A DNA stretch of 17,987 bases from Anaerolineae bacterium (GTDB lineage: Bacteria; Chloroflexota; Anaerolineae; JAAYZQ01): the NCBI GenBank assembly GCA_016926595.1, contig JAFGOG010000463.1, positions 1 to 17,987 on the forward strand, given 5' to 3'. The position numbers and the translations under genes are program-made. A model generated the notes under the pieces. It did not search any database. It had not been told where the DNA came from and saw only the letters and a list, made by a program, of their open reading frames with translations. Below, piece after piece: positions 843-17,987 of the stretch (position 1 is its first letter; every line of letters starts with the position of its first letter).

Positions 843-845
843 GGC

Positions 846-1979
846 TCAGCCCCGCTTCACCCGCACTACCCGGACCCGGTAGCGCAGCAGCACCTCGCTG
901 CTGATGAGGCAGAAAAGGATAATGCCCTGCAACAGCTTGGCGACTCCGGAAGGTTGGATTTCCCGGCCAGCCAGGATCAGCGCGCCAAACAAGATTGACA
1001 CTGGCACGACTACCAGGGGATTGAGCTTTGATAGCCAGGCTACGATAATGCCGGTGAATCCATACCCCGGCGAGATGGCCCCCTGCAGGCGGTGGACAAC
1101 TCCGCTGATCTCCGACATGCCGGCAAGTCCGGCCAGTCCACCCGACAGCATCATCACCAGGATCGTGTTGCGGGCGATATTGACGCCGGCATAGCGAGCT
1201 GCTCTTGGATTGTCGCCTGTCAGTTCGATCTCGAACCCCCATTTGCTGCGGTACAGGACCCACCACAGGATGCCGGCCGCGACCAGACCTATCACCAGCC
1301 CTAGGTGGGTGGTAAGCCCGGCGAAAGCGGGTACCTGCTTGGCATAGTCGCCCAGGCGGGGCAGCCATGCCGAAGTGGGGAACTTGCGGCTCATCTGGAA
1401 TCCCAGTTCGCTCCACTTTGCAAAGATCCAATAGTTGTTCCACGAGATGGCGATATAGTTCATCATCAGCGTGGTCAGTACTTCGTTCACATTCAGCTTG
1501 GCTTTGAGCACGCCCGGCACAAAGCCCCACAGCGCGCCGCCGAGGGAGCCGGCAAGGGCCATAACCAGCAGCATCACGACCTTGGCTGTAGTGCCGGGCA
1601 GCACAGGCCAAAGGACGATCGCACTCGCGGCCCAGGCACCCAGGAAGAACTGGCCTTCGGCGCCGATATTCCACAGCTTGGCACGAAAGGCTAGACTACA
1701 GGCCAGTCCGCATAGGAGGATCGGAGTGGCCTTGGTCAGCGTATCTGACAGGACGCCGACGTCGCCGAAAGCTGCCTTGACCATGTGCCCGTACGTTTGG
1801 AACGGGTTCCCGCCCACCACAACTAGGACGATCCCGCCCAGCACTAAGGCCAGCACCAGTGCCCCCAGTGACACCAAGGAAGGCAGCCAGGGCGGTACAT
1901 CCGTAATGCGCGGTTCGGCCTGCACACGCCATGAGAAGGTCACCCTTCGCTTGTTTGTCGCTGCCTTACGCGCCGCCAC
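846..1979 (-). CDS. BMP-type nucleoside/sugar ABC transporter, first permease
   Basis: First channel subunit of the importer (BPD_transp_2 superfamily, YufP/NupP-like). After a basic cytoplasmic N-terminus there are about eight to ten hydrophobic spans, with the family hallmarks GLACSLAFRAKLWNIGAEGQ, the segment GALWGFVPGVLKAKLNVNEV and, later, SGGLAGLAGMSEISG. It is a little longer than many homologues. I prefer the GTG at 1979 (377 residues) because GGAGGT (1987-1992) lies 7 bases upstream. An in-frame ATG at 1994 gives 382 residues, but its own ribosome site is poor and it would overlap the ATPase gene by 29 rather than 14 bases. The overlap with the ATPase gene indicates translational coupling. 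Substrate is not readable from the sequence; nucleosides are the likeliest by family. Confidence 0.9.
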   Translation of the reverse strand: MAARKAATNKRRVTFSWRVQAEPRITDVPPWLPSLVSLGALVLALVLGGIVLVVVGGNPFQTYGHMVKAAFGDVGVLSDTLTKATPILLCGLACSLAFRAKLWNIGAEGQFFLGAWAASAIVLWPVLPGTTAKVVMLLVMALAGSLGGALWGFVPGVLKAKLNVNEVLTTLMMNYIAISWNNYWIFAKWSELGFQMSRKFPTSAWLPRLGDYAKQVPAFAGLTTHLGLVIGLVAAGILWWVLYRSKWGFEIELTGDNPRAARYAGVNIARNTILVMMLSGGLAGLAGMSEISGVVHRLQGAISPGYGFTGIIVAWLSKLNPLVVVPVSILFGALILAGREIQPSGVAKLLQGIILFCLISSEVLLRYRVRVVRVKRG

Positions 1980-3546: not shown

Positions 3547-3595
3547 GGAGCTGAGTTGCCTTGCTCTGAGGAGAGCGCGCCGGTGCAGCTTGAAT

Positions 3596-3631
3596 TCGGG
3601 GCCAGGGAAGGGGATTCCTCCCTGGCCCCGA
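3596..3631 (-). other. Stem-loop between lipoprotein and ATPase genes
   Basis: A 13-bp perfect inverted repeat (3596-3608 with 3619-3631, core GGGGCCAGGG/CCCTGGCCCC) around a 10-base loop lies just after the lipoprotein stop on the transcribed strand. No run of T follows it on the minus strand, so it is not a classical rho-independent terminator. By analogy with other binding-protein operons, it may protect the 3' end of the lipoprotein message or partly attenuate read-through, giving more binding protein than membrane complex. That role is inference. Confidence 0.7.
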
Positions 3632-3640
3632 CTCGACAGG

Positions 3641-4855
3641 CTATTGGCTCAATTCCGGCAGCTCAGCGGTGATGCCGTCGGCCCACCAGTACATGCAGTA
3701 CTTGCACTCCAGGCCTGGGGCACCAGGCGGAAACTGGTCGATGTCCGCCTGTTCGATCTTTTCCCCAGCCGGCACGATGATATTGCCTTTGTTGTCCTTG
3801 ATTTCCCCTGCAAATACGTCAAAGCGGTTGAATTTGCCGGCCAGCATCTGCGCCAGCGTGTCCCTTACCAATTGCAGGTCCGCCGCTGGCAGTTCGGCTG
3901 CACCAGGCTGTAGTGTCTGGCCTTCCATGAAACCGAACAGCCCCAGGCTGCCGGTTTCGGCATCAAAGTAGTCCCACCCTGGTGTATACGTGCCGGCCTT
4001 GACGCCCTCGGCGATCTTTAGGTATATCGGTCCCCAGTTCCAGTAGGGGGCTGTCAGGCAGCGATCCACTTTGCACGAACCAGCCCAGTCATAGGTAACA
4101 CCCCACTTGCCTTTTTCTTGGGCTACGTCTGCGACCGCGGGCGTATCGGCGCCGGTGAACACCACCTGAGCGCCGCTGTCAAACAACGAGGCAGCAGCGT
4201 CTCTCTCAACTACCGGATCGTGCCAAGTACTGATCCAGCGCACATCCATGGTGCACTCTGGGCAGGTTTTCTTCATTCCCAGCGCGATGGCATTGCCCAG
4301 CCGGATCTCCTCGGGGATGGGGAAGGTAGCCATGTACCCGATCTTGGGGTTCCCGTCTAGCTTGGCGCGCGAGCCAGCCAGCATCCCCGCCAGGTACTTC
4401 ATGTCCTCCATGGCGCCGAACAGGTTGCCAAAGTTTGTCGAGTTCGATTTATAGCCACTGATATGGATGTAGGTGGTATCGGGAAATTCACCGGCCACCG
4501 TCTCCATCGGATCCATGAAGCCAAACGAGGTGCCAAAGATCAGGTCAAAACCCTTTCGTGATAGGCTGCGGAAGACCTGCTCCGAGTCTGCACCTTCAGG
4601 CACGTTCTCGACGTAGGCGGTATGCACATCCTGCATCTTTTCCTGGATATATTCCAGTCCCTCATAGTGAGCCTGGCTCCAGCCTCCGTCGTTGTGGGGG
4701 CCGATGAGAACCATGGCAACATTGAACTTGCCTTTCTCGATGGCCGGGATCTCAAATCCGCCTACTACCTCTGGCTTCTCTTGACCGCAGGCGCCCAGAA
4801 CCAGCGCCACGATCAGTGCAACTACTGCCACCCCACTCCATTTCTTTGGCCGCAT
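3641..4855 (-). CDS. BMP-family substrate-binding lipoprotein (BmpA/Med/NupN-like)
   Basis: 404 residues. Basic N-terminus, hydrophobic h-region and lipobox L20-G21-A22-C23, so it is predicted to be a membrane-anchored lipoprotein outside the cytoplasmic membrane. The mature part fits the Bmp/PnrA fold (periplasmic-binding class I): NVAMVLIGPHNDGGWSQAHY (45-64), FDLIFGTSFGFMDP (103-116), KIGYMATFPIPEE (171-183), VVFTGADTPAV (231-241). Characterised members bind purine nucleosides; the ligand here is inferred. It carries three cysteine pairs (198/201, 261/266, 384/387) that could form disulfides or a metal site. GGAGGAG (4861-4867) lies upstream of the ATG at a good distance, predicting high translation. 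It is the first gene of the operon, behind a consensus promoter at 4948-4976. Confidence 0.93.
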   Translation of the reverse strand: MRPKKWSGVAVVALIVALVLGACGQEKPEVVGGFEIPAIEKGKFNVAMVLIGPHNDGGWSQAHYEGLEYIQEKMQDVHTAYVENVPEGADSEQVFRSLSRKGFDLIFGTSFGFMDPMETVAGEFPDTTYIHISGYKSNSTNFGNLFGAMEDMKYLAGMLAGSRAKLDGNPKIGYMATFPIPEEIRLGNAIALGMKKTCPECTMDVRWISTWHDPVVERDAAASLFDSGAQVVFTGADTPAVADVAQEKGKWGVTYDWAGSCKVDRCLTAPYWNWGPIYLKIAEGVKAGTYTPGWDYFDAETGSLGLFGFMEGQTLQPGAAELPAADLQLVRDTLAQMLAGKFNRFDVFAGEIKDNKGNIIVPAGEKIEQADIDQFPPGAPGLECKYCMYWWADGITAELPELSQ

Positions 4856-4891
4856 TGTCTCCTCCTCATCTTGATTTGTGTGTAGTTTGGC

Positions 4892-4924
4892 AGAGCATGT
4901 TCCAACTATCCGAGACCATGCTCT
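4892..4924. repeat. Inverted repeats in the importer leader
   Basis: The transcribed leader of the importer operon contains AGAGCATG (4892-4899) and its perfect complement CATGCTCT (4917-4924), separated by 17 bases. The second arm is also part of a 16-base near-palindrome CGAGACCATGCTCTCG (4911-4926), so two alternative hairpins compete for it. A further short palindrome TATGC-GACA-GCATA (4931-4944) sits at the predicted transcription start. These could be an operator or an RNA switch; no known riboswitch consensus was recognised. Confidence 0.5.
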
Positions 4925-4947
4925 CGCCTGTATGCGACAGCATATGT

Positions 4948-4976
4948 ACTATAGCACGAAAGGGGCGTATTGTCAA
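4948..4976 (-). promoter_or_regulatory. Sigma-70-type promoter of the importer operon
   Basis: On the minus strand TTGACA (4971-4976) and TATAGT (4948-4953) are separated by exactly 17 bases: a full -35 match and a 5-of-6 -10 match. Transcription would start near 4941, leaving a leader of about 85 bases before the lipoprotein ATG. The -35 box begins only 33 bases after the stop of the upstream unknown gene, so the importer can be controlled independently of it. Confidence 0.85.
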
Positions 4977-5009
4977 AGGGAAGCTAAAAGGCTGTTGTTC
5001 GTATTACGA

Positions 5010-6233
5010 TTACGATCTGGCCTGTGCCGATCGGAGCAACTGCTCAAGGATGGTCATCAGCTCCGGGTTGTCGGTGAGATCTGTCGTTCGTTGATTGTAT
5101 GCCTTGGTCAACAGGCTCAGGCTTTGGGATAGGTTTTCCCCAGGCATCTGTACTTGTGAAGCCACCAACAATCCGCCCAGCAACAAGGGCAGGTAAAGGA
5201 ACTCGGCAGGCAAGTTGCCTCCTTGTTCAACTTGATTGACGACCAAATCGGTGATCGCCAGTTGTTCTTCAAGTGTCCAGGGGATATGCCCCAGACTTTG
5301 CCGCAAGAGGCCAAAGCTGACCGATTCCGCCAGGCGGATCATTCGTCCATAATCGGCACGGGCGATGAGAGGAATGGGATCGCTGACCGGCAAGTCATAC
5401 CGAAACGCCAGGGTGTAAGCTGGAACCAATATCGCATCCTGGCGGCTAGTCTGGTTCAGAAAGTATTCGGCGGTATGGGTCAGGATCTTTGCCAGAAAGA
5501 TCGCCTCACCGATCTGGAGAGGCAGGGCAGCATTCCGGAATCGCGTTTGACTCTCTTCCATAAAGGCCAAATACAAAGGCTGCCGGATCAGTTTGGGCAG
5601 GAGATATAGACGCTGATCGTTGACGTATTGTTGGGCTTTGCCCTGGACGGGTAGATCGGCCACGGTCCAGTGGGAGACAAATGTCGGGGTCAAGTCTGTA
5701 GGTGGGCCGGAATGGGGTGGGCCCTCCATATGCAGTCGCAACTGCTGCTGGGGGCAAGTGCGGGCAACAAAACCCAGGCCGAGCACCGCTGCAAGGCTCA
5801 TGCCAGTGGTAAAGGCCAGCAGTGTATCACCGAATTGCCCACTGGCTTTCTGGCTGCGGATATAGAGTCCGCGCTCTTTGTACCTAACGCCGATCGTTAC
5901 TGCAATTGGGTATTCTCCCGGTGCGCCCTGGCTGCTGGCGACTATTGGAATAATCACTTCGCCAACTTCAGCCGCCTCTAGCAGCACATCGGTCTGTGCC
6001 TGAATGGCGCTCAGGACGGGGGGCGGATGGGCTGGCATGTGTAGGGTGATCTCTACTTCGACGGGCACATCCCAGCAGTTTTGTAGCCAGATGTGAAGGT
6101 TGGCTATCTGACCCGGCGCGATGGTGACCGGCAGGGCCATGACATAGTGCACGCCATTCACCTCAAATCGCTGCCGAGCGTCAACGAGATCGCCTAGTAT
6201 GTCGGGATATTCGTTGCTCATGGCTGCTTGCAT
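5010..6233 (-). CDS. Conserved-looking protein of unknown function with an N-terminal beta-rich domain
   Basis: 407 residues that I do not recognise. Residues about 15-140 look like a beta-sandwich (Ig/CARDB-like): alternating hydrophobic stretches such as VTIAPGQIANLHIWLQNCW, VPVEVEITLHMP and GEYPIAVTIGVRYKERGLYI. A hydrophobic stretch (LLAFTTGMSLAAVLGLGFVA, about 149-168) follows, then a proline-rich linker and a mainly helical C-terminal half with a second hydrophobic patch (LYLPLLLGGLLVASQV). There is no signal peptide, so the beta domain is probably cytoplasmic or the hydrophobic parts are buried rather than membrane-spanning. It has its own strong promoter (6251-6279). Start choice: ATG at 6233 is reported; the ATG four codons later (6221) is equally possible because AAGGA lies directly next to the first ATG and 12 bases from the second. 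Expression as a single gene is likely. No function is assigned. Confidence 0.8.
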   Translation of the reverse strand: MQAAMSNEYPDILGDLVDARQRFEVNGVHYVMALPVTIAPGQIANLHIWLQNCWDVPVEVEITLHMPAHPPPVLSAIQAQTDVLLEAAEVGEVIIPIVASSQGAPGEYPIAVTIGVRYKERGLYIRSQKASGQFGDTLLAFTTGMSLAAVLGLGFVARTCPQQQLRLHMEGPPHSGPPTDLTPTFVSHWTVADLPVQGKAQQYVNDQRLYLLPKLIRQPLYLAFMEESQTRFRNAALPLQIGEAIFLAKILTHTAEYFLNQTSRQDAILVPAYTLAFRYDLPVSDPIPLIARADYGRMIRLAESVSFGLLRQSLGHIPWTLEEQLAITDLVVNQVEQGGNLPAEFLYLPLLLGGLLVASQVQMPGENLSQSLSLLTKAYNQRTTDLTDNPELMTILEQLLRSAQARS

Positions 6234-6250
6234 TCCTTGTGACGGAGAAA

Positions 6251-6279
6251 AGTATACCCGGAGGCGCCTTCGTTGTCAA
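6251..6279 (-). promoter_or_regulatory. Sigma-70-type promoter of the unknown 407-residue gene
   Basis: Minus strand: TTGACA (6274-6279), a 17-base spacer and TATACT (6251-6256), close to perfect consensus. The start of transcription would be near 6244, only about 11 to 23 bases before the candidate ATGs, so the leader is very short. The spacer holds an 8-base palindrome AGGCGCCT (6262-6269) that could bind a regulator. Confidence 0.8.
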
Positions 6280-6342
6280 GCGGCAGTATTGCGTTTTGCG
6301 TTGTTGATCAAGTTCTGTGTTCTGTGCAGGCGTGCCGTGCGC

Positions 6343-6372
6343 TTGACTTGTCGTGCAATTTAGTGGTAAACT
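6343..6372 (+). promoter_or_regulatory. Promoter of the ferredoxin gene
   Basis: Plus strand: TTGACT (6343-6348), an 18-base spacer and TAAACT (6367-6372). The -35 box is strong and the -10 box moderate. It diverges from the promoter at 6251-6279, with about 64 bases between the two -35 boxes. The gene start follows about 50 bases downstream with a very strong ribosome site AGGAGGTGA (6411-6419). Confidence 0.65.
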
Positions 6373-6424
6373 AGGGATGTGGTCTGTTCTACAAACTTTT
6401 CGTAATAGAGAGGAGGTGAAGTTG

Positions 6425-6697
6425 ATGGCTCACGTTATCACCGAGTTGTGCATTCGCGATGGGGCATGTGCGGCTGTTTGCCCGGTCGAGTGCATCGTGA
6501 TGGGTCCGGAGGGCGATCCGCAGTGGGGAATGGCCTATTTCATTGACCCGGACACTTGCATTGATTGTGGCGCTTGTGCAGCAGAGTGCCCGTCGGATGC
6601 GATCTTTCCGGAGGATGAGGTTCCGGAGCAATACCAGGAGTGGATCGCCAAGAACAGGGCATTTTACACGGAGGGGCCGGGCTACAGCGCGCAGTGA
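6425..6697 (+). CDS. Ferredoxin with two iron-sulfur clusters, one site-differentiated
   Basis: 90-residue cytoplasmic electron carrier. Cysteines: C9, C15, C19-P, C23 in the first half and the complete motif C45-x2-C48-x2-C51-x3-C55-P in the second. By the usual crossed pattern of bacterial dicluster ferredoxins, cluster II would use C19, C45, C48 and C51. Cluster I would use C9, C15, C55 and the residue at position 12, which is aspartate instead of cysteine. That predicts a [3Fe-4S] or Asp-ligated [4Fe-4S] cluster, as known from Pyrococcus furiosus ferredoxin. The spacing between the motifs, the phrase YFIDPDTCIDCGAC and the acidic C-terminal tail resemble the seven-iron ferredoxins of Actinobacteria and Chloroflexota. 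The start at 6425 is fixed by AGGAGGTGA just upstream; an earlier in-frame ATG at 6353 lies upstream of the -10 box and is not the start. Single-gene unit with its own promoter and terminator; the redox partner is not evident here. Confidence 0.93.
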   Translation: MAHVITELCIRDGACAAVCPVECIVMGPEGDPQWGMAYFIDPDTCIDCGACAAECPSDAIFPEDEVPEQYQEWIAKNRAFYTEGPGYSAQ

Positions 6698-6715
6698 ACC
6701 GGTTCAATTCAAGCA

Positions 6716-6756
6716 GGGGGGGCAACTGGCTACAGCTAGCCCCCTCTGTCTTGTTC
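6716..6756 (+). terminator. Terminator after the ferredoxin gene
   Basis: GGGGGC (6718-6723) pairs with GCCCCC (6739-6744). An alternative inner hairpin GGCTA (6728-6732) with TAGCC (6737-6741) shares the second arm. A T-rich tract (TCTGTCTTGTT, 6745-6755) follows on the plus strand. It sits between the convergent ferredoxin and oxidoreductase genes. The tail is interrupted by G and C, so strength is uncertain. Confidence 0.6.
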
Positions 6757-6783
6757 GGCAGCGGCAACAGCTATCCCTCCTGG

Positions 6784-7566
6784 CTATTTGCCAGATTCAA
6801 TGCCGTCTGGGTAAATAATCTCGCCGCCTTGGATTTGGCGAGTTTCTCCCATGTCGAGTGGATAATCACGGCCTGGCTGGATAACCCCTTTTGGACTATA
6901 AGGCCCTACAGTCGGCCAATAACCACGTAGCTCCTCCTCGGCAAAAGCTAGGCGGGTAATGGCCTTGGGGCTCTTGTAGCCATATAGCGGAGGGATAATC
7001 AGCCGCAGTGGAGCGCCATAGGCATCAGGCAGGATCTGATCGTTCATGTGGTGCACAAAGATCACACGTTCATCCAGCAGGGCATCGATGGTAAGGGATT
7101 CATAATAGCCATCGGCGCAATGAAAGTGGACCCATTTTGCCGCAGGCAGGGGCTCGATCAGCTCTAGCAGGGAGCGCAGATGAAATCCTTCCCACTTGGC
7201 CGCTGCCGACCAGCATTCGACGCACTTCATCCGCGAGACTTGCGAGGTAAGTGGCAACGACTGGACATCGGACAACGACAACTTGATCGGGTTCTTGATC
7301 ATGCCTTCCAGCGAAAGGGTCCATTGAGTGGGATCCACGGCCTCGAAGGGTTTGTAGTAGCGGACGTAAAAGCCAGGCGGGTTGTCGTTCTGCAGGATGG
7401 GGCGTTGGGGAGCAATGGTTAAGGAGGTGACGCCGGGCTCTCTGGTTTCGGACGGCAGAGTTACGGAAGTGGAGGTCTGTTTGGGTGCGCAACCTTTGAG
7501 CATGGCCAAGGCCATGCCTCCAAGCGCTAGTCGAGCAAACTGGCGGCGGGTCACTCTGTTTGCCAC
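6784..7566 (-). CDS. Molybdopterin-dependent oxidoreductase, YedY/MsrP-like (sulfite-oxidase fold), Tat-exported
   Basis: 260 residues. Twin-arginine signal RRQFARLALGG (7-17) followed by a hydrophobic stretch and a possible lipobox L-K-G-C26, so the folded enzyme is probably exported with its cofactor and may be lipid-anchored. The catalytic domain fits Oxidored_molyb (PF00174): RMKCVECW (112-119), where C115 matches the Mo-ligating cysteine of YedY/MsrP; VHFHCADGYYESL (146-158); YGAPLRLIIPPLYGYKSPKA (183-202). Known relatives reduce methionine sulfoxides or oxidise sulfite; which applies here cannot be read off. No MsrQ-like haem membrane partner is adjacent. The start is GTG at 7566: the frame is closed by a stop shortly upstream and AAGG lies 7 bases before it. 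The gene follows the peroxiredoxin gene by 14 bases, so the two form an operon. Confidence 0.88.
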   Translation of the reverse strand: MANRVTRRQFARLALGGMALAMLKGCAPKQTSTSVTLPSETREPGVTSLTIAPQRPILQNDNPPGFYVRYYKPFEAVDPTQWTLSLEGMIKNPIKLSLSDVQSLPLTSQVSRMKCVECWSAAAKWEGFHLRSLLELIEPLPAAKWVHFHCADGYYESLTIDALLDERVIFVHHMNDQILPDAYGAPLRLIIPPLYGYKSPKAITRLAFAEEELRGYWPTVGPYSPKGVIQPGRDYPLDMGETRQIQGGEIIYPDGIESGK

Positions 7567-7580
7567 TAGATTGCCTTGTG

Positions 7581-8060
7581 CTAAGCCTGGGATGGTTGTT
7601 TGGGGTCCTTAAGAACAGCAAGGACCTCTTGGCTATGGTTCTGAACCTTCACATTTGGAAAGACTCGGATGATTGTGCCCACCTCGTCGATGATAAAGGT
7701 GGAACGTATGATGCCCATATATTCTTTGCCGTACATGCGTTTCTCGCCCCAGGCACCATACATCTCGGCTACCCGGTGATCGGGATCGCTGAGGAGAGCG
7801 AAAGGCAGACTGAACTTGGTTTTGAATTTGTCATGTGACTTGAGGTTGTCAGGGCTGATACCTAGTACGGCTGCACCCGCAGCGACGATCTCGGCATAGT
7901 CGTCGCGGAAGTTGCATGCCTCGGTCGTGCAGCCGGGAGTGTTGTCTTTGGGATAGAAGTAGAGCACAACTTTTCTGCCCTGATAGTCAGACAGGCTTAC
8001 CTCACGCCCGTCATCAGCCTGAAGCGTGAAATCTGGTGCAAATGTGTTTTCCTGCAGCAT
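7581..8060 (-). CDS. bcp: Thioredoxin-dependent peroxiredoxin, PrxQ/Bcp type
   Basis: 159 residues, the usual length of the family. Reduces hydrogen peroxide and organic hydroperoxides using thioredoxin; cytoplasmic, no signal. The active-site loop [16 protein letters not shown] shows the peroxidatic Cys44 and, five residues on, resolving Cys49, the defining spacing of the atypical two-cysteine PrxQ group. Further family marks are [11 protein letters not shown] near the start, [25 protein letters not shown], the active-site arginine in [10 protein letters not shown], and [17 protein letters not shown] (plus positions 8066-8071) lies 5 bases before the ATG, an excellent ribosome site. First gene of a two-gene unit with the YedY/MsrP-like oxidoreductase; together they suggest defence against oxidative damage (inference). 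Confidence 0.95.
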
Positions 8061-8333
8061 GTCTTACCTCCGTGTATACTATTTGTGCAATGCGCTTTAT
8101 GGCTTCTCCAGTTTGACTCATCACCGGCTGCACCGGGGCTACCAAAAAACTGTGACGGGGTCGACATAATAACCCTGAGTGCTGAAGCGAATAAGTTATT
8201 GGTCATAATTTCCTCGCAGTGAATCCTAGCCATGATACCACCGAGCCCGGGCCGGGTCTGTAATCAAGGTACCGTTATTAGCAAGAATTGGTTATGGAGC
8301 TGAGCAGTTCAGTGTATGTAGCGGCAGGTCCAA

Positions 8334-8404
8334 TTCGCATAGCCATATGATGTACGCCTGCAACGCGCGTTATGTTGCTAGAATCGTGCTTTATGCTATG
8401 CGAA
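8334..8404 (+). repeat. 71-bp element A with 10-bp inverted ends
   Basis: TTCGCATAGC (8334-8343) and its perfect complement GCTATGCGAA (8395-8404) enclose 51 bases. An element with the same ends and exactly the same 51-base interval lies at 10737-10807 in the opposite orientation. Orientation is set by the flanking bases: the match extends to TTCGCATAGCCA on one side and CTTCGCATAGCAT on the other when B is reverse-complemented. The interior carries a central palindrome AACGCGCGTT (8362-8371 region) and a -10-like TAGAAT (8379-8384). Confidence 0.85.
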
Positions 8405-8578
8405 GCACTGTGGGGGATGTGGATGGTATTTGGCAAGCTGCGAAGGTGAACACTGGTTGGCTACCAAAGCGCAGCTGAGCAGTACATCGACATCGACGCG
8501 CCTTGGTTTGCATTGTGACCAGGGGGTAGGGTGAAAGGGAGCAAGCCCAACTGGGCTGCATTTAGCTTACTGGGTAGT

Positions 8579-8608
8579 TGATTAGCACAATGTTGATTGT
8601 GCTAATCA
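8579..8608. repeat. Perfect 12-bp inverted repeat
   Basis: TGATTAGCACAA (8579-8590) pairs perfectly with TTGTGCTAATCA (8597-8608) around a 6-base loop. The outer halves TTAGCAC and GTGCTAA equal those of the HrcA operator CIRCE, but they are 10 rather than 13 bases apart and no heat-shock gene follows. It could be an operator for another repressor or a stable RNA hairpin. Confidence 0.7.
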
Positions 8609-8628
8609 TATACCGTTATCGTGCTACC

Positions 8629-8665
8629 ACCAGTGTGGCACACCCCTCCCTGCCACGCTGGTTTT
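8629..8665 (+). terminator. Terminator-like hairpin
   Basis: ACCAGTGTGGCA (8629-8640) and TGCCACGCTGGT (8651-8662) form a 12-bp stem with one G-T pair and a pyrimidine-rich 10-base loop, followed by TTT on the plus strand (8662-8665 reads TTTT). It would end a plus-strand transcript from the gene-poor region. The T tract is short, and on the minus strand none follows. Confidence 0.5.
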
Positions 8666-8804
8666 CAGAACCTCTGCCAACCGTTCCAAGATGGCAGCAG
8701 CAACGGGGAGCTGACACACACCCGGCCGGCGGTTGGTGCGCACAATCGCGTAGCGCGCCGAGTGTAGTAGTACTTCGAACCGATAGCTAGTTATGTCCAG
8801 TTGA

Positions 8805-9497
8805 TCATAGCCACTGGCCGTGGCGCGAGTCCCCGGTGAAAAGCGCTATTACCGCCCCTGCACTGGCCAACATCGCCAGTCCGAGAAAGCAAGCAGCGCA
8901 CCCCCACCCCACTGCCGGTGGGGCGCCATATGTCGCATTGATGGCTGGCTTGACGATCAACATCTGCCAGGCAGCCAAAGCGCCCGCTAAAATGGCCAAC
9001 CCGCAGCACGCCAGACCAGTCAGCCGGATTGGCAATCGCCCCAGGAGCCAGAATCCGCCCAACGCCAGCCAACAAAACCCCAGGGCAATCGGTTGCAAAC
9101 GGAACTCGGCTGTCATCAGGCTGCCCGGCGACCAGGCGGGTGGTAATAGCTGAAAGCTCATCACGGCGGAAGCTGAGAGAACACCCACACGCAGCAGCCA
9201 GGGAAAACCCAACGATCTATTACCCACCAACAGAGCGACAGTGAGCGACACTGCAACAGGCGGCAGGTAAAAGAACTGCCTTACTACTTGCAACGACCCA
9301 TCCAAAACACCAGGCAGGAACTTGACAAACTCACCCATATCGGATCCGGTCAAGGTCAGCGCTGCCGTTTTATGAGCGATCCACGGACCGTAGTAACCGA
9401 CAATGACAAGCACCCAGCCAAGAGGCAGCAACAATTGGGCTAGCCTCAATACAGGGTTACGAGCTCGATTGCCTGCCAACCTCGATACCGCGCTCAC
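8805..9497 (-). CDS. Six-segment integral membrane protein of unknown function, coupled to the AAA+ ATPase
   Basis: 230 residues from the GTG at 9497, whose GTGA overlaps the ATPase stop codon, a classic coupled start. An upstream in-frame ATG at 9575 would overlap the ATPase gene by 82 bases and add a basic, low-complexity N-terminus, so it is unlikely. About six hydrophobic segments are visible (roughly residues 18-38, 79-95, 99-118, 134-153, 158-179, 194-219). The first loop carries a distinctive polar stretch GYYGPWIAHKTAALTLTGSD and EFVKFLPGV that looks conserved-family-like. No catalytic motif is recognised. Its coupling to a BchI/ChlI-like ATPase suggests that the two products work together at the membrane; that is inference from arrangement only. 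Confidence 0.82.
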   Translation of the reverse strand: MSAVSRLAGNRARNPVLRLAQLLLPLGWVLVIVGYYGPWIAHKTAALTLTGSDMGEFVKFLPGVLDGSLQVVRQFFYLPPVAVSLTVALLVGNRSLGFPWLLRVGVLSASAVMSFQLLPPAWSPGSLMTAEFRLQPIALGFCWLALGGFWLLGRLPIRLTGLACCGLAILAGALAAWQMLIVKPAINATYGAPPAVGWGCAACFLGLAMLASAGAVIALFTGDSRHGQWL

Positions 9498-10648
9498 TTG
9501 TCGCTCACTTTTGTCTTTACCAGGTTGTGCCAAACAGCTCTGATTTCCTGCTCTTCTTTTCCAGCTACGTCGCAATACTTGTGGATGAACTCACTGCGGC
9601 GTTGGCGAAGGGCCATAGGCGCAACGGCAGCCACGTCGTCAGGCGTGGCTGATTGCCGCCCATCGGCCGCAGCATATGCTCGGGCTGCTTCCAAGGCAGT
9701 GATCTCTGCCCGATGACTTGGGATCTCGAGTTCTTGCACCAACCGCAAACCGAGGCGCTCCGCCTCGGGTAACAAATCCACTTTGGGCAACAGTTCACGA
9801 GCCTTGGTAATTTCCTGGCCAAAGGTGATGGTGTCTGCCAGAAATGCCGCAAGCAGCCGATGAGGATTCTCACGAAATGCTCGTACGCGACGGTAGATCT
9901 CGAGCCGCTCGTTCAGGTCGTAGAGCCCACCGACAATTATTCGCAAACCAAAGCGATCCTGGATCTGTGGTCGCAACTGCCCTTCCTCAGGGTTCATCGA
10001 TCCGACCAGGATCAGCTCGGCGGGATAGGTGGCGACGAGAGGGCCACGGCGCACAGTCACACGCCCTTGTGCCGCAGCGTCGAGGATAGCATCCGCTATT
10101 ACATCGTCTAGAAGATTGACCTCATCGATGTACAGCAGGTCCCGGTGAGCGTGAGCCAGGATACCGCGCTCAAGACGGAGTCTTTGCTGCTCCACAGCCA
10201 ACCGCTCGTTAACACCACCGATCACGTCTTCGAGACGGGCATGGAGCGGCAATTCCACAAGGCGCATCCGATCGAGACCGGTCAGCTCCTCGCCACGGGC
10301 CAGCTTGGCAGCGCAGCTCGGGCAGATGGCCTCTACACCCCATGCCTCAACAGCTTCAGCTTCACAGCCGTAAGGACAAAGGCTACGCCGCACAGGCGGC
10401 ATGAGATCGACGAGGCCACGAACGGCCGTTGTTTTGCCAGTCCCGCGTGGGCCGATCAGCAAGACGCCACCCACTGCTGGATTAATGACGTTTAGAACCA
10501 ATGCAGTCTTCATTTCCGCCTGACCGACAATGGCCAGAAATGGAAAAGCCACAACCTGCCCACTCACTACTTCTGGCGGAGTTGTTTCCCTAAGCAGTGC
10601 AGCTGCTGTCCGTTGCTCGAGAATTTCCAAGAGAAGAGACTTGGTCAT
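9494..10648 (-). CDS. BchI/ChlI-like AAA+ ATPase (magnesium-chelatase subunit I family)
   Basis: 384 residues, cytoplasmic. Motifs in order: FLAIVGQAEMKTAL (37-50), Walker A GPRGTGKT (66-73), a four-cysteine insert C91-x3-C95 ... C109-x2-C112 (possible zinc site), ELPLHARLEDVIGG (132-145), Walker B LLYIDEVNLL (171-180), sensor-1 GSMNPEEG (216-223) and the arginine-finger segment RPQIQDRFGL (226-235). This is the I-subunit fold that in photosynthetic organisms drives magnesium insertion with ChlD and ChlH. No D or H subunit, cobaltochelatase or other tetrapyrrole gene is in the window, so a chelatase role is unproven; many non-photosynthetic bacteria carry related ATPases. The only linked gene is a membrane protein coupled by a GTGA overlap. 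The ribosome site is weak (GGGGAAT). The upstream 160-base gap holds the 71-bp element B. Confidence 0.88.
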   Translation of the reverse strand: MTKSLLLEILEQRTAAALLRETTPPEVVSGQVVAFPFLAIVGQAEMKTALVLNVINPAVGGVLLIGPRGTGKTTAVRGLVDLMPPVRRSLCPYGCEAEAVEAWGVEAICPSCAAKLARGEELTGLDRMRLVELPLHARLEDVIGGVNERLAVEQQRLRLERGILAHAHRDLLYIDEVNLLDDVIADAILDAAAQGRVTVRRGPLVATYPAELILVGSMNPEEGQLRPQIQDRFGLRIIVGGLYDLNERLEIYRRVRAFRENPHRLLAAFLADTITFGQEITKARELLPKVDLLPEAERLGLRLVQELEIPSHRAEITALEAARAYAAADGRQSATPDDVAAVAPMALRQRRSEFIHKYCDVAGKEEQEIRAVWHNLVKTKVSDK

Positions 10649-10736
10649 TTTTACATTCCCCTACTCTGCCTACACAACCTACCCTATTACCCCACCAACG
10701 TATCAGCTCGCATGAATGAGTCGAGGGGCGCCAGCC

Positions 10737-10807
10737 TTCGCATAGCATTACCTCATAATAGAAACAAAATCCCGGGTGAAGCATGTCCGTGCCATTGGCT
10801 ATGCGAA
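10737..10807 (-). repeat. 71-bp element B with 10-bp inverted ends
   Basis: TTCGCATAGC (10737-10746) and GCTATGCGAA (10798-10807) enclose 51 bases, the same geometry as element A at 8334-8404 but reversed. It starts one base after the stop codon of the glycosyltransferase gene and ends 88 bases before the ATPase start, so it can serve as a 3' element of the polysaccharide operon, an upstream element of the ATPase gene, or both. A -10-like TATTAT (minus strand, 10755-10760) lies inside it, near the position of TAGAAT in element A. Confidence 0.85.
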
Positions 10808-10808
10808 C

Positions 10809-11951
10809 TCAGGAATTGTTGAAAGACTGGTAGATCCTGTACAATTGCTGGGCTCCTTTTTCCCAGGTGAACCCGTGTGCCTGCTGCTGACCTGCCACAG
10901 TCAATCGTTCCCTAAGAACTGGCTCGCGCAAGAGCGTGCTAATGGCATGAGCCAAAGCCGCTGGATCGCCAGTCGGCACCAATAGCCCAGCATCGTCGAC
11001 GGCCTCAGGGATCGAGGAGTTGTCGGCGGCCACAACTGGCGTTCCACAAGCCATGGCTTCCAGCACCGGCAGGCCAAAACCCTCATACCAAGTCGGAAAG
11101 GCGAAAACGAGCGCCAGGGTGTAAAGCGCCGGCAAATCCGCATCCTGCACAAACCCGACCAGGCGCACCCGCTCATCTAATCCCAAACGGGCTATTGTCG
11201 CCGGGACATCTTCCGCCATCCAGCCTTCTTCGCCAGCAATGACTAGGTGCAGGTGCTTGGCGGTATCCTGACTATGCGCAAGTAACGTCGCAAAGGCCTC
11301 AATCAGTCCAGCAAAATTCTTCCGGGGCTGAAGTGTCCCGAGGCCAAGAATAAACTGGTCTGGCAGCCTGTAGCAGGCGCGCACCCGATCCAAGACCTCT
11401 GTCTCACAAACAGGCCTGAAACGTGTCTCAACCCCCGGGTATAACACCGTAACCCGCTCTGGCGCGGCGCCGAGCAATTCGATCAGGTCGCGCCGTGTGC
11501 TCTCCGAGTCGGCCAGAATCCGCCTGGCGCGCCGCACCGCACGCGGGACCGCCTGCTCTAGGTAGCTGCAAAAGGCGGGCACATAGCATTGTGGCACCCG
11601 CATGAAGGACAAATCGTGCACCGTCAGGATCGCCGGGGTACGACCCAGAGGTGGCAATACGAAATCTGGCGAGTGGAAAAGGTCCAACGGCCCAGTGACT
11701 GCCTGAATAGGTACTGGCAATCGCAGCCTCTGCCACAGCAGATTGAGCCAGCGATCAGACAAGGGGATCGACCTGATCCGGAAATTGTCAGGCCACGATC
11801 CCAATCCGTCATCACCATGACCGCCGGCAACGAACAACGTATATTGGCGTTCGACGTCTATCTCGGCCAACGCACGAACCAGGTTCCGCGCATAGCGGCC
11901 AATCCCGCCGCGCTGGCGTACGGCGGCCGTATAATCGATTGCGATCCGCAT
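10809..11951 (-). CDS. Glycosyltransferase family 4
   Basis: 380 residues from the ATG at 11951 (AGGTGA upstream). Cytoplasmic, GT-B fold, retaining; transfers a nucleotide-activated sugar to a growing glycan. N-terminal acceptor domain: MRIAIDYTAAVRQRGGIGRY with the typical glycine-rich GGIGRYARN (15-23), and LTVHDLSF (109-116). C-terminal donor domain (Glycos_transf_1): LGTLQPRKN (204-212), where R210 and K211 bind the donor diphosphate, VIAGEEGW, and the E-x7-E pair E290/E298 in YEGFGLPVLEAMACGTPVVA. The frame stays open upstream to 12236, but that part overlaps the GtrA gene and lacks family similarity. Last gene of the polysaccharide operon, 32 bases after the GtrA gene. Donor and acceptor are unknown; mannosyl- or hexosyltransferases are the nearest relatives by motif. 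Confidence 0.93.
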   Translation of the reverse strand: MRIAIDYTAAVRQRGGIGRYARNLVRALAEIDVERQYTLFVAGGHGDDGLGSWPDNFRIRSIPLSDRWLNLLWQRLRLPVPIQAVTGPLDLFHSPDFVLPPLGRTPAILTVHDLSFMRVPQCYVPAFCSYLEQAVPRAVRRARRILADSESTRRDLIELLGAAPERVTVLYPGVETRFRPVCETEVLDRVRACYRLPDQFILGLGTLQPRKNFAGLIEAFATLLAHSQDTAKHLHLVIAGEEGWMAEDVPATIARLGLDERVRLVGFVQDADLPALYTLALVFAFPTWYEGFGLPVLEAMACGTPVVAADNSSIPEAVDDAGLLVPTGDPAALAHAISTLLREPVLRERLTVAGQQQAHGFTWEKGAQQLYRIYQSFNNS

Positions 11952-11983
11952 CCTACGCGTCACCTGATTCTCCGAGGCCTGGC

Positions 11984-12553
11984 TCACTTGATACCCTTGT
12001 AAGTCCAAATCCGGTTCACACCGAAATTCCAGAAAAGGACAACGCCAATAGCAAAGGCCTTGGCCAGGTTCATACTCAGCCGCACACTGAAAAAGTTCTG
12101 AAACACATAGCGATCCATCACCACGAGCAGCGCGGTGTTGATGCCCAAGCCCAGCACGTTGACAACGGCATAGCGCGCCAACTGGCCGCCGATAGGCCTT
12201 TCCCGTGACTCGGGAAAGGTCCACAACCGATTCCACGTGAAATTACTCACTACAGCAGCCGAAAAGGAAATGGTATTTGCGGCAATCGATTGAACCTGAT
12301 GCGGATTCAGCGGTCCACCCAGCCCCACCCCAAGACCTACCCGCTCAAAGATCAGCTTCATTATGTTAAGAATAGTAAAGTCAACGACCCCGCCGATAAT
12401 CCCGACAATGGCAAACTTGACGAACCGCTCCAACTCCTTGGGGTTGTCGACAAGTTTTTCCCAAACACCTCCCACCAATGGGAGACGCGCCAGCCAAGCG
12501 GAAATACGCCTCAAGCGGGGGTGGGTCTCAATCGCCGCGAATAGGCGGATCAC
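11984..12553 (-). CDS. GtrA-family membrane protein
   Basis: 189 residues with a soluble basic N-terminus (about 45 residues) and four hydrophobic segments of the GtrA domain (PF04138): FVKFAIVGIIGGVVDFTILN (44-63), SIAANTISFSAAVVSNFTWN, RYAVVNVLGLGINTALLVVM and AFAIGVVLFWNFGVNRIWTY near the C-terminus. The phrases VSNFTWNRLWTF and WNFGVNRIWTY are typical. The family is thought to move or flip lipid-linked sugars across the membrane during cell-surface glycan synthesis; direct proof is limited to few members. The ATG overlaps the stop of the ligase-like gene (ATGA), so translation is coupled. Confidence 0.9.
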   Translation of the reverse strand: MIRLFAAIETHPRLRRISAWLARLPLVGGVWEKLVDNPKELERFVKFAIVGIIGGVVDFTILNIMKLIFERVGLGVGLGGPLNPHQVQSIAANTISFSAAVVSNFTWNRLWTFPESRERPIGGQLARYAVVNVLGLGINTALLVVMDRYVFQNFFSVRLSMNLAKAFAIGVVLFWNFGVNRIWTYKGIK

Positions 12554-13977
12554 TGTGGTTGAGCCTCCTGGTTACTTCCAACACTCGCAACCAATCCCAA
12601 CAGGACTGCTAACTGCAAGTACATGCCATGCACGTAAAGGTTGTCGACAAAGCTGTGAACGCCGAGATGGATCATGACCCCGAGGACGCCCAGGGCCACG
12701 CCCAGCCCCCAGCCGGATCCACGGCGGACGGCGCGCCAGGCGTGAAACAATGCCGCGCCCCACAGCAAAAGATACGCCCCCAGGCCAAGAATGCCCGCTT
12801 CTGCAGCGACATTCAGGTAGTAATTGTGGGCATGCCCCAAAGGTAAGGGCCATTGCGGCAGCGCATAGCGCGGATAGACAGGCTCATAGTTGCCGATGCC
12901 TACACCCAGCCAGGGATGATCGGTCCACATCTGCCAGGCCGCCTGCCAGTGCGCCACCCGCTCAAGAACAGCAAAGTTGGCGTCGGTGATCTCGGCGCCG
13001 CGCACGTCCAACACTCCGAGGTAAGGGACGAAATCGCTAAAACGCTGAACCAACGCAGGCGGTACGCGCGCCAGGCCGCCAGCCAGCAGGGCATAGGCCA
13101 CAAGGGCCGCAAGGATGGCGCTCAGCACCGCCCCTCGCCCACTCTTTACCACTAATGCAACCGCCATGCCCGCCACAGCAGCGCCAAAGCCCAACCACGC
13201 CCCGCGCGACCACGACATGACGAGGGCCGCCAGCATCAGGACAGCAGAGATGCCGGCCACGACCAGCGCAACCCACCGCCAACTGCGCAACCAGCGCCCA
13301 AGGCCGAGCCCCGCTACAATAACCATTCCCAAGGCTAGCGGCAGGGTCAGCCCCAGGTATCCTCCGTAAGGGTTGGGCTGTTCAAACGTGCCGTATGCGC
13401 GCATAAAGCGATCAAAGAGGACAAACCCCTCAGGGCCTACGCGAAACAGGAATTGGTAAATCCCATGCAACGCAGCCAATGCCCCAGTGACCACAACTGC
13501 TATGGCCAGAACCCGAGCCCACCTGCCGTTCACTCCCCAAGCCACCAACAGGTACAAGAGAAGGACTTCAAACCACTTGATGAGCTCCTTAATACTGTGC
13601 TGGAGCGACCAGGTCACCAAAAGCGACAGGAGCAGAACTCCAATAAAGATGGTGAGCGGCCAGAGCAATGCAGGCCGGGGAGCGCGGCGCAGCACACCCT
13701 CCCGCCGGAGCGCCAGGCGCATCAACCAGGCGGCAGCCACCAACACAACCAGAGCCTCGGTCAGGCCAACGTTCATCACCCCCAGACGCACCTGGCGGAT
13801 GGCGCCAAAGGGAACCGCCACGACCACAAAAACCAGACCAAGCCGCGGCTCTACCAGAGTGACGAGCAGAACCACGCCGCCTAGAACAAGCAGCACCGTC
13901 CAAGTGAGCGGCAGCAGGGCGATGGCCAGGGCCAGTCCTACGGCTACAAACAAGCCCAGGACCAGATCCCAACCCAC
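12550..13977 (-). CDS. O-antigen ligase/polymerase-like membrane protein (WaaL/Wzy, PF04932)
   Basis: 475 residues from GTG at 13977, two bases past the UXS stop. An upstream ATG at 14136 would overlap the UXS gene by 158 bases and adds a non-hydrophobic stretch, so I reject it; the ribosome site before the GTG is weak, consistent with re-initiation. About eleven to twelve hydrophobic segments. Family motifs (numbering from the GTG): GTFEQPNPYGGYL at 196-208, SWSRGAW at 255-261, a large outward loop with DHPWLGVGIGNYEPVYPRY, the essential-type HAHNYYL at 382-388 and HSFVDN at 441-446. Relatives join or polymerise lipid-linked glycans outside the inner membrane. It is a diverged paralogue of the C-terminal half of the 1004-residue protein in the same operon. 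Confidence 0.88.
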   Translation of the reverse strand: MGWDLVLGLFVAVGLALAIALLPLTWTVLLVLGGVVLLVTLVEPRLGLVFVVVAVPFGAIRQVRLGVMNVGLTEALVVLVAAAWLMRLALRREGVLRRAPRPALLWPLTIFIGVLLLSLLVTWSLQHSIKELIKWFEVLLLYLLVAWGVNGRWARVLAIAVVVTGALAALHGIYQFLFRVGPEGFVLFDRFMRAYGTFEQPNPYGGYLGLTLPLALGMVIVAGLGLGRWLRSWRWVALVVAGISAVLMLAALVMSWSRGAWLGFGAAVAGMAVALVVKSGRGAVLSAILAALVAYALLAGGLARVPPALVQRFSDFVPYLGVLDVRGAEITDANFAVLERVAHWQAAWQMWTDHPWLGVGIGNYEPVYPRYALPQWPLPLGHAHNYYLNVAAEAGILGLGAYLLLWGAALFHAWRAVRRGSGWGLGVALGVLGVMIHLGVHSFVDNLYVHGMYLQLAVLLGLVASVGSNQEAQPQ

Positions 13978-13978
13978 T

Positions 13979-14926
13979 TTATCTACGCAGGCGATTGCGG
14001 AACCAATCAACGGTCTTGGCCAATCCTTCTTCCAGAGATACCACCGGCTCCCAGCCCAATAGCTGGCGAGCTCTGCTGATATCGGGCTGACGGACCATGG
14101 GGTCGTCTTTTGTCCGCTCGTCCTTTGGATGGACAAACACGATCTCGGAGGTGGAGCCTGTCACTTTTAGCACTGTGCGGGCGAATTCCAGGACTGTCAT
14201 CTCATGCGGATTGCCCAGGTTCACCGGATAGGCTTCATCCGACATCAGCAACCGGGCAATACCCTCCACCATATCCGACACGTAGCAGAAACTACGCGTT
14301 CGCCTGCCGTCATCGTAGACCGTCAACGGCTCGCCCAACAGCGCCTGCCGAATAAAGTTCGGCACTACCCGCCCATCGTCCAGCCGCATTCGTGGACCAA
14401 AACAATTAAAGATCCTGGCGATGCGCGTTTCAAGACCATGATGGCGATGGTACGCCATCGTCAATGCCTCAGCAAAGCGCTTTGATTCGTCATATACACC
14501 CCGGGGACCCACCGGGTTGACGTTGCCCCAATAGTCCTCGGGCTGCGGATGGACCAAAGGGTCGCCATACACCTCCGAGGTCGAAGCCAGCAGGAAACGT
14601 GCGCTCTTGGCCTTGGCCAAACCCAAAGCCTTGTGCGTGCCCAGCGCCCCCACCTTCAGGGTCTGGATCGGATAGTTCAGGTAATCGACCGGGCTGGGCA
14701 GCGAAGCCAGGTGCAGCACCGCGTCGAGCGGGCCGGCGGTGTAGATATAGTCGGTAACATTGTGCTTCACAAAATGGAATCGCTCGTGCCCCGCCAAGTG
14801 GGTGATATTGTCGGTGGAGCCGGTGCTCAGGTTATCCATCGCGATCACCTCGTGCCCTCGATCGAGCAGATAATCGCACAGATGTGAGCCAATAAACCCG
14901 GCTCCGCCGGTGATCAGGATCCGCAT
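13979..14926 (-). CDS. UDP-glucuronate decarboxylase (UDP-xylose synthase) or close NAD-dependent epimerase relative
   Basis: 315 residues, extended short-chain dehydrogenase, cytoplasmic. NAD-binding GGAGFIG at 7-13 with D31-N32 after strand 2; TSEVYGDP at 116-123; catalytic Y145 and K149 in YDESKR; S/T115-117 as the catalytic hydroxyls. The phrases [18 protein letters not shown] (126-143), [11 protein letters not shown] and [14 protein letters not shown] are characteristic of bacterial UXS, which converts UDP-glucuronate to UDP-xylose. A related epimerase specificity remains possible. The ribosome site AGGAGG (14938-14943) overlaps the stop codon of the fusion gene, 11 bases before the ATG, so the genes are coupled. 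The product would feed the glycan made by the neighbouring transferase and ligases. Confidence 0.88.
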
Positions 14927-14941
14927 CGTCTTTGAAACCTC

Positions 14942-17900
14942 CTATTTAGCCTCTGTAGCGCCGAACGGAAGCTGGATAAACGCCAGCATCAACATGAACA
15001 CAAAGCTCAGATCGACCAGAAAAAAAGCAGCATCGACCAACCCATGAGCCAAAAAGTTGACCATACCGGCCATCAAGCCCAGGATCAGTAACCAGTCAGT
15101 GCCTGACGCAAGGCGCGAGCGACTATAGAGATACCAGCCGCGGCGGAAAAACAGAACTATGACCCAGCCTAACCACAACACGCCCGGCAATCCCAACCTC
15201 AACCAGAAATCGAGCACCAGGTTGTGTGGATGAGACAGGTTGAACTCCTCCCAGGCCGTGGGCAGCACGTAGGCGGTCCGATACTCGTACAAGAAGCTGT
15301 CCAGTCCAACCCCCAAAACCGGGTGATCGCGAACCATCGACCAGCTTGACCGCCACAGTTGAAGCCGAAGAAAAGTAGTACCCTCCCCGGTTTCCAGAAC
15401 AGAGCCAAGCCGGCCGAACCCGGCGATCAGTATGACCACCACGGCGATCACAGCCAACACCCCAACTGCAACCCCAAAGGCCCGGCGACCGCGCATTACA
15501 GCCAGGAATAGCAACGCGGCCGGCACCCCCAGCACCCAGGCGCCGCGCGAATAGGTCAGGAAAAGCACCGCGGCCATGACGATGGCCGCCAGGCTATAGG
15601 CCACCCCACGCCATCGCCACGCAGTCGCCCGCGCCCGCGGGGAGAAGAAAAACCAGGCAGCCACAGCCACTACCAGGGGAAACACGCGCCCCAAGTACAA
15701 AGCCAGGTTGTTGGGCGAACCGTAGAAGGCCCTGACCCGCCACACGTCCTCTGCTTTGATGACACTCTGGCCAAAGACATACTGGCAGAGACCCACCAAC
15801 GCAGCCAGGCTCGCGCCCAAGACCCAGGCATCGACGATGCGCCACGCGTCGCGCTGCGCACGCACCATAACCCGCACAAGCCCGTAGAATACCCCCGCCT
15901 CGAGGATCACGATGCGGAACTCGCGCGCCGCCTCACGCGGATGGGAGGGCCACAACAAAGAAACCGCACCCCACAACACGAGGGCAACGACCGCCCAATC
16001 GAAAGGAGTGAAACGCAATTTGGCCAAGCTGATCCGTGCTGCGGCTCGTCTATCGCCCTCCAATGAACGCAGGAAATGGGACAGCAGCAGGCCGGCAGCC
16101 CACGCCAGAGCAGTGAGCGCGACCAGGATCTCGACCATCGAAAACAGCTTGCCCAGCAGGGGCTTGCCCGGCTGGTAGAAAGGCAAAGCCAGGGCGATCA
16201 GGGGTAGTCCCGCCTGGGGGCGCAGAAGAAGAGCCAGGGCCAGCAAGCCAAGGGCCAACAAGCTCGGCACAGTACCGACCGTGACATAGACAAGCAGAGC
16301 CAGGGCGGCAGTTATCGCCAGGGTCAGACGATCGTCGAGGGCGCGATAGCGGGTAATCGACCAACGCCAAGCAGCCAGGAGCGAGCGCCGCCCGGCCCAC
16401 AACAAGCACCCGGCTGCCGCCAGAGGGAAAAGGGCAGCCAACCCCAAGATAACGGCGACAGCGGCAGCCCAGCCCGGCGACTGGCGCGAAACAGTCCAGC
16501 CGGCGATGGCCCATTGGCCCCAGCCGCGCTCGGCGATAATCTCGACCATGTGCTCGCCCAGGGGGAGATCGCGGGCAATTGTGACCGACTCTTCTCGCCG
16601 CAATGGATCATAGAGAACAGCATAGGCCCGGCCGGTCTCGTCGCACGGCAAGGCGTTGGCTGGCTGGCCGTCGACCGTCACAAACAGAAAGGCGCGATAG
16701 TCGCCCCGGCGTACGGCCAGATCGAGGCGAGTCCCCCAGAACCTGATGGCCAATCGATCGCCGCTTTCGCCTATGTCGGCCCCCTGCCGGGTCACGCGCC
16801 AGGCGCCCTCATACAGCCCGCTGGGATCATCGGCGCGATGCACACCGGGCCAGGCGATCGGCGGCGCCGTCGCCACAGCACGCAGGGCGCCGTACTGTGT
16901 GGTAGCCTGACCAGCGGCGCCAAGCAGGGCATATTCGCCGTGCAGATCGGCGGCCGACCAGGCAGCCCACAACATAGGGCCCAGCCACGGCCAATCCTGC
17001 CGCGCCTGCCTGACCAATGGGCCGGGATCCGCCGCGATCGAGCCAAAGGAGACAGCCCACACGGCCGTTTCGCCATCCCCATGAGACTCGATCACCTGGC
17101 GCAAAAGAAACGCGCGCCGCCAATTTAGCCGATCCGGATCGGGCGGAGCATCCTGCGCATCGTCAAAGGGGTAGAGCTGAGCGGCCACAACGTCGAACCA
17201 CTCCCCTGCCCCACACTGATAGAGGGCATCAAGAAAAGAGAGCTCGCTCATGTTCGCCCCGCCTGGCTCCACGGTGGGCGCCAAAGCGGCAAGCAGGACG
17301 ATCGCCCCAGGATCGCCGCTGCGGACCTGGATCGCCCCTTCGCGCAGCAGGCTGGCGTAAGCAGCCGGGTCGATCTCCCGCGCCCCCCAATGCGGGGCGA
17401 TGTTCGGCTCGTCCCAGATCTGATAGTAGTCGATCTTTTCCCGGTAGCGGGCGACAAAGGCTGCGACAAAGGCTCCATAATCCCGGACCTGATGGGGAGG
17501 TGCCAGGGGACCGCCAGCGTCCGATTCCGCCCTTGCCCACTCGGGGGACCGGTCCAGGACCGCCACGATGGTTAAATTATGTCTATATACATCCTCGACA
17601 ACCGCGTCCCAGGCCGCCCAGTCGTAGACACCAGGCTGTGGCTCAATCGCATCCCAGGGGAAACGCTGCCTGAGCCAGTGAAAACCCGCTTCCTCCATCG
17701 CCGCCAGGGCCTCTTCTCGCGCGACCGCGTCGTAGCGGCTGAGGTCGGCATTTATGCCCAATGACTTTTCGGCAGTCAGGGGTATGGCGGGTGGGACGCC
17801 ATCCACGACAGCACGCTCCGGCCCAAAGCGGGCTCGGAACAGAGCAGAGCTGACGAGCAGCAGGCTAGCCAATGCGAAGCAGGCGGCAGTAGAAGCAGGA

Positions 17901-17956: not shown

Positions 17957-17987
17957 CTCGGATCTGAGCTCTGGCCATCACTCGTCA

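Follow-up and report, generated by a model that had tools for sequence, protein, structure and literature searches.

Paired directional elements in Anaerolineae look like signals that mark, and perhaps enforce, the end of replication

Known terminus systems and the element family

The fork-trap genes tus and rtp have been reported from only four bacterial clades, according to an excerpt of PMC6549158, and it is an open question whether bacteria outside these clades depend on such a trap. In the narrow trap of Edwardsiella tarda, opposed Ter sites enclose both dif and the skew flip (PMC8707476, in excerpt), and the Ter of Bacillus subtilis is composed of A and B half-sites that are unequal (PMC10331603, in excerpt). 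The single-recombinase Xer modules XerS/difSL and XerH/difH place the dif site beside the recombinase gene (PMC5357621, in excerpt). Here we describe a family of DNA elements, represented by two 71-bp copies in 17,987 nucleotides of an Anaerolineae bacterium of the Chloroflexota (assembly GCA_016926595.1, contig JAFGOG010000463.1, positions 1 to 17,987 of the forward strand; this whole stretch is called the window). In many related bacteria such elements appear to be a previously undescribed kind of signal marking, and perhaps enforcing, the end of replication.

In the window, the decamers TTCGCATAGC and GCTATGCGAA pair at 8334-8343/8395-8404 and again at 10737-10746/10798-10807, each pair spanning 71 bp in total and enclosing 51 bases. 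All four decamers are exact, and no other match with up to one mismatch occurs in the window (1.24 expected by chance). The equal layout described in the initial annotation was therefore confirmed at these coordinates, as was its view that the two elements are mutually inverted, their order being (-,+). Its judgement that the pattern is not chance also stands. The exact pattern with 51 enclosed bases turned up in 2 of 84,980 genomes, one per species, against about 0.23 expected in 257 Gb (257e9/4^20), and the wider family in 87 of 396. Both genomes with the exact pattern are Chloroflexota metagenome-assembled genomes, in which an element lies 3' of the same gene of 275-281 aa, next to an SmpB-type gene; the SmpB family was confirmed by Pfam on another family member, and the two interiors are unlike. 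A lone third arm TTCGCATAGC was also noticed in G001 (L001:3403-3412), 33 bp upstream of an element arm.

Starting from these two genomes, we sampled 396 genomes of the class of G001 (Anaerolineae bacterium, Chloroflexota). Searching for TTCGCATAG-N43..73-CTATGCGAA gave 49 elements in 34 of the 396 genomes, whereas the pattern read backwards, as a control, yielded a single element in a single genome. Further copies thus do exist in relatives. Forty-six of the 49 were fetched with their flanks (one from G026 and two from G100 are missing), and the window's two were added to make 48. Unsupervised orientation of these yielded the consensus (ac)TTCGCATAG-YCTAwTTyc.cTTTC.gaaaa ... tTATGA-CTATGCGAA(gt), and we call the end that bears the TTTC.GAAA box L and the opposite end R. 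Every family element is asymmetric and has inverted arms of 9-11 bp (TTCGYRTAG). Lengths range from 68 to 83 bp, with 71 and 74 jointly commonest (8/48 each), and a constant spacing, as first proposed from the window, does not hold. The accompanying idea of a protein on two sites fares better in part: the two half-sites are probably protein-bound, but not at a fixed distance. Likewise, the interiors were described as free, and indeed their similarity between elements is weak, except that the L end shares the TTTC.GAAA box. Each genome in which the family was found carries 1-5 distinct elements and no array.

A covariance model was then built from 46 elements, leaving out L064 (G338), which has unlike ends, the wrong skew sign and no model match, and L076 (G010), the longest at 83 bp; both were nevertheless kept in the skew count of exact-arm elements given below. 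Measured by their 9-bp arms, the arms of the 46 training elements are 50-65 bp apart. At E<=0.01 the model matches 33 of the 34 exact-arm genomes and 7 of 20 others, and at E<=1e-4 it matches 87/396 genomes under strict filters by which weak matches are lost. From the latter matches a held-out set of 23 elements (20 stretches, 19 genomes) was picked by hand, mostly on longer contigs. The arms of these model-found elements are again TTCGYRTAG, with one TTCGCATAA, and at position 6 the L arm mostly has A where the R arm has G. Constancy of the arms is due to the exact-arm selection in the training set, and less so in the held-out set.

Separately, a 37-bp miniature with the same arms and 15 bases between them occurs at G029:C1:2176121-2176157 (L170), in a genome whose sampled skew goes negative between 2.24 and 2.375 Mb. 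Phage and plasmid records contained no similar DNA. A looser pattern matched 5 viral contigs of IMG/VR, each time over 81 bp; these near-identical sequences, which in L003 form an open protein frame, were taken as chance.

Direction of the elements, GC skew and dif-like sites

The maximum of the cumulative GC skew is the usual mark of the replication terminus. In the window this maximum lies at 8601, between the two elements, and to the left of element 1 the skew reaches only +0.006. Oriented by the unsupervised consensus, element 1 (8334..8404, - strand) has its L end pointing right and element 2 (10737..10807, + strand) has its L end pointing left, both to the terminus. Accordingly, half-site TTCGCATAG forms the outer (R) arm of element 1 at 8334..8342 (+) and its inner (L) arm at 8396..8404 (-), and the inner (L) arm of element 2 at 10737..10745 (+) and its outer (R) arm at 10799..10807 (-). 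The replication terminus is the context that the initial annotation missed: it had the elements bracketing exactly one two-gene unit, whereas they bracket the terminus, and the enclosed genes differ among genomes.

The same arrangement recurs across the family. At least 14 contigs carry an innermost pair: besides the window, these are ten from training genomes (G002, G003, G020, G074, G093, G286 and G295 by the consensus; G008:C189, G042 and G089 by the covariance model) and three from genomes outside the training set (G339, G361 and G325). In 14/14 the order is (-,+) with the L ends inward, and in 14/14 the cumulative GC-skew maximum falls between the inner pair, whose spacing is 2.4-25 kb. 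Six contigs of 58-318 kb, on which the pair takes up 2-35% of the contig, are strong tests of the skew; for the other eight only <=20 kb were used. On the 318-kb contig of G074, for example, the maximum (115,277) falls between the elements at 114,969 and 121,139, and the skew turns from +0.075 to -0.096 across adjacent 10-kb bins. There was no (+,-) neighbour pair among the matches listed. Additional copies keep their side, with an extra '+' element further out in G020 and two '+' elements 107 kb apart in G253, a one-contig genome whose local skew maximum (2,354,258) lies left of both, as expected.

Element direction predicts the replichore, single elements included. The skew on the outer side has the expected sign for 36 of 39 testable exact-arm elements and for 18 of 21 testable held-out elements, after exclusion of those with less than 1.5 kb of outer DNA (9/48 and 2/23, respectively). 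We are close to certain that the elements are directional markers of the terminus.

The window holds a perfect 11-6-11 palindrome, GATTAGCACAA TGTTGA TTGTGCTAATC (8580..8607), which contains the skew maximum and, from its sequence, looks like dif; a scan for terminator-like sites did not class it as one. In nine other genomes an 11-6-11 palindrome and a tyrosine recombinase gene (PF00589) lie about 0.3 kb apart or closer on the elements' inner side (training G295, G286, G077, G008 and G073; held-out G079, G139, G209 and G123). This is the likeness to XerS/difSL and XerH/difH, whose description in the excerpt of PMC5357621 presents the dif module without mention of such flanking elements. A 28-bp 11-6-11 palindrome at the terminus beside a recombinase, as single-recombinase dif/Xer systems have, is provided by the palindromes of these five training and four held-out genomes and not by the elements. 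The window shows the palindrome and the skew maximum but not the recombinase, and none of its open reading frames (ORFs) matches the Xer-type recombinases of other element loci. Arms of the window's putative dif type, allowing up to two mismatches, were found in 0/396 class genomes.

Recombinase genes keep to the inner side more widely. A relative lies there in 11/11 training loci that hold one (weak or partial in L084 and L086) and in 7/7 held-out loci that hold one, and a wider search agreed in 12 of the 13 genomes that have a match on an element contig, G253 being the exception. A palindrome scan gave 9 candidates in 43 sequences, 7 of which lie inward of an element or pair; neither of the two outer ones (L088 at 2237, inside an ORF, and L090 at 10767) adjoins a recombinase. 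In G008, two contigs each carry a candidate dif palindrome, perhaps from a mixed assembly.

Other repeats were seen near these sites. In two genomes a second 11-6-11 palindrome of the GGTCRAATGAC-N6-GTCATTTGACC type lies about 0.5 kb from the dif-like site (L067:7646-7673 and L068:10596-10623). Between the two elements of G002, an Xer-like arm TTATGTCAAGT occurs three times, once inverted, in 80 bp (L054:4835-4915), possibly the dif region of that genome.

A proposed narrow fork trap and the rival explanations

Opposed directional sites flank the terminus in all 14 innermost pairs and, by analogy, such sites together with same-side extra copies and with dif and the skew switch between them have the layout of a fork trap. 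We consider the chances evenly divided on whether the elements are polar, Ter-like barriers to replication forks that form a narrow trap around dif, fork arrest being the step we infer. A terminator protein would bind both inverted half-sites (TTCGYRTAG) together with the A/T-rich box at the inward-facing L end. A fork on its own replichore would pass the near element in the permissive direction, and a fork that had run past the terminus would reach the L end of the far element first and be stopped there, if this is the blocking face. Forks would then meet within a trap of the width of the inner pair that contains dif. As with the A and B half-sites of B. subtilis Ter (PMC10331603, in excerpt), two unequal half-sites could give direction.

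The nearest parallel is Tus-Ter in the narrow two-site form of E. tarda, which likewise has few sites per chromosome (PMC8707476, in excerpt). RTP-Ter of B. subtilis also resembles the family in having two unequal half-sites and opposed sites at the terminus (PMC10331603, in excerpt). The elements depart from both systems in form. Ter is about 23 bp and is bound by a Tus monomer, whereas the elements are long and have two inverted arms. RTP half-sites are close together, whereas 40-65 bp lie between the arms here. Tus (PF05472) was over the cut-off in 0/33 element-bearing genomes, with 2 weak matches at E<=0.1 and a positive E. coli control, and RTP (PF02334) was over the cut-off in 0/33, with weak matches in 4/33 and a B. 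subtilis control over the cut-off; the best of the weak RTP-like matches (G371) is a PadR regulator by Pfam. Because neither protein was found over the cut-off, the elements may act as a fork trap and yet be neither Tus-Ter nor RTP-Ter. That many Anaerolineae have a third, independently evolved bacterial fork trap, in which long bipartite polar sites with a variable spacer and a perhaps Xer-related terminator protein restrict fork fusion to a few kb around dif, is a tentative proposal, its prospects just short of even.

Several points weigh against a fork trap. What we observe is the family with its direction, its location at the skew switch, and the dif-like sites and recombinase genes on its inner side; the binding protein, fork arrest and the blocking face are deduced. 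Skew switches near dif occur without fork traps too, and skew marks the terminus, not arrest. The bipartite form of 68-83 bp with variable spacing is unlike known Ter sites, and the covariance model has no match at E<=1e-4 in 309/396 genomes. No candidate for the binding protein was found among the recurrent neighbours, which comprise housekeeping-type genes and the recombinase only. The skew sign is missed by L064, L082 and L088 among the exact-arm elements and by L157, L160 and L166 among the held-out ones. In G253 a generic recombinase match lies between the two '+' elements and another to the right of both, the whole-genome skew, as sampled, is noisy and returns to positive values at 2.9-3.8 Mb, and a '-' element was not found. 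Finally, dif arms resemble TTCGCATAG: in ten genomes they agree with it at 5-8 of 9 positions, and in four of these (G295, G286, G079 and G123) at 7-8 of 9.

This resemblance of arms feeds the main rival, to which we assign a lesser but appreciable probability, namely that the elements are accessory or segregation sites of Xer/dif: the dif recombinase or a relative would bind the Xer-like arms and lend a direction to synapsis or DNA translocation near dif, and forks would not be stopped. Everything indeed sits around dif, and no DNA-binding protein other than the recombinase recurs near the elements. However, dif arms vary among genomes and the element arms stay TTCGYRTAG, also in model-found elements; moreover, the terminus is tens of kb away from some elements, and there are extra same-side copies (G020, G253). 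Half-sites 40-65 bp apart cannot make an ordinary recombination core, and the elements themselves as a dif/Xer core, with half-sites 6-8 bp apart, are ruled out by the arm distances of the training set. Polar sequences offer a further comparison; AIMS are named in PMC5993296. KOPS/AIMS are 8-bp polar motifs in many copies whose direction changes at the terminus; the direction switch is alike, but here there are only a few long elements per genome.

A folded site of the Xer-like or attC-like kind, in which the arms would pair into a hairpin of one strand and the folded form would be recognised, is improbable. The complementary ends are conserved while the interior varies in sequence and length, most arm differences in the held-out set would be G-T wobbles on the bottom strand (as read from the arm table), and a computed fold pairs the arms in 22/23 held-out bottom strands. 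Yet the arms of any bound inverted pair would fold, the held-out interiors have no folding advantage over shuffled sequences (z -0.05 and -0.31; p 0.85 and 0.3), the 46 training interiors have only a slight one (z -0.57 and -0.41), and the position on both sides of the terminus is left unexplained. Integron attC sites have conserved complementary ends, a variable interior, end boxes of their own and cassette arrays. The elements do not belong with them, as they have TTCGYRTAG ends instead, few copies per genome, no array and a fixed direction around the terminus.

The remaining two rivals concern the genes around the elements; the initial annotation had raised a mobile or cassette-like unit and a looping operator. 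Identical inverted ends around two window genes would suit such a unit bounded by them, or a repeat of the MITE (miniature inverted-repeat transposable element) type, but we regard this as very unlikely: copies are few and directional around the terminus, which together with the weak interior similarity also speaks against MITE membership, and no target duplication was seen by eye at the window's two elements. The genes inside the inner pair differ from genome to genome and the AAA+ gene of the window is not a recurrent neighbour, hence there is no cassette. Many elements instead keep their neighbours across genomes, recurrent among which are M28 peptidase (16 loci with the gene no more than 2.5 kb from an element), HflX-like GTPase (12 loci), S41 peptidase, SmpB, a PNP/MTAP-type phosphorylase and MobB, annotated with the help of Pfam; these suggest that the terminus neighbourhood is itself conserved. 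Looping transcriptional operators made of two half-sites are hardly to be expected either, since, although the elements are intergenic with two inverted half-sites and some lie just upstream of a gene (e.g. that of the M28 peptidase), their lengths spread over 15 bp, their direction is tied to the terminus and not to a gene, and mechanically called flanking ORFs are convergent at 22, divergent at 4 and tandem at 39 of 71 elements (6 are without a neighbour on one side), from which we conclude that they are not promoter operators in general.

If the elements do form a fork trap, it would be a new case, unrelated in sequence, whose directional sites go with dif and the skew switch across a Chloroflexota class, and the element DNA could serve as bait for the terminator protein. 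The elements would also allow dif and the terminus to be placed in the genomes sampled here, most of which are drafts. If forks are not stopped, they would still be an undescribed directional mark of the terminus; among the open-licence papers listed, none was on dif, terminus sites or the element motif in Anaerolineae.

Genes of the window and minor observations

Inside the bracket, the window encodes on the - strand a 256-aa ORF (8805..9575), by appearance a membrane protein and without a Pfam family, and an AAA+ protein of the magnesium-chelatase-I type (9494..10648), which is common in Anaerolineae. The AAA+ gene is outside the element system, being absent from the recurrent neighbours of the elements. 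Element 2 ends one base short of the stop codon of a glycosyltransferase ORF (10809-10811, - strand). Scans of the window gave no Rfam match at the gathering score and no tRNA, and a 407-aa ORF at 5010-6233 (-) has no Pfam family.

Two further kinds of repeat were noted at other loci. Three near-identical hairpins GTTCGCACCTRGGGGTGCGAAC are spaced by about 70 bp at L065:17038-17208. Recurring 28-bp palindromes of the GTAGGACAAAT and GTAGGGGCGAC types occur in L156, L161 and L162 and are probably another dispersed repeat.

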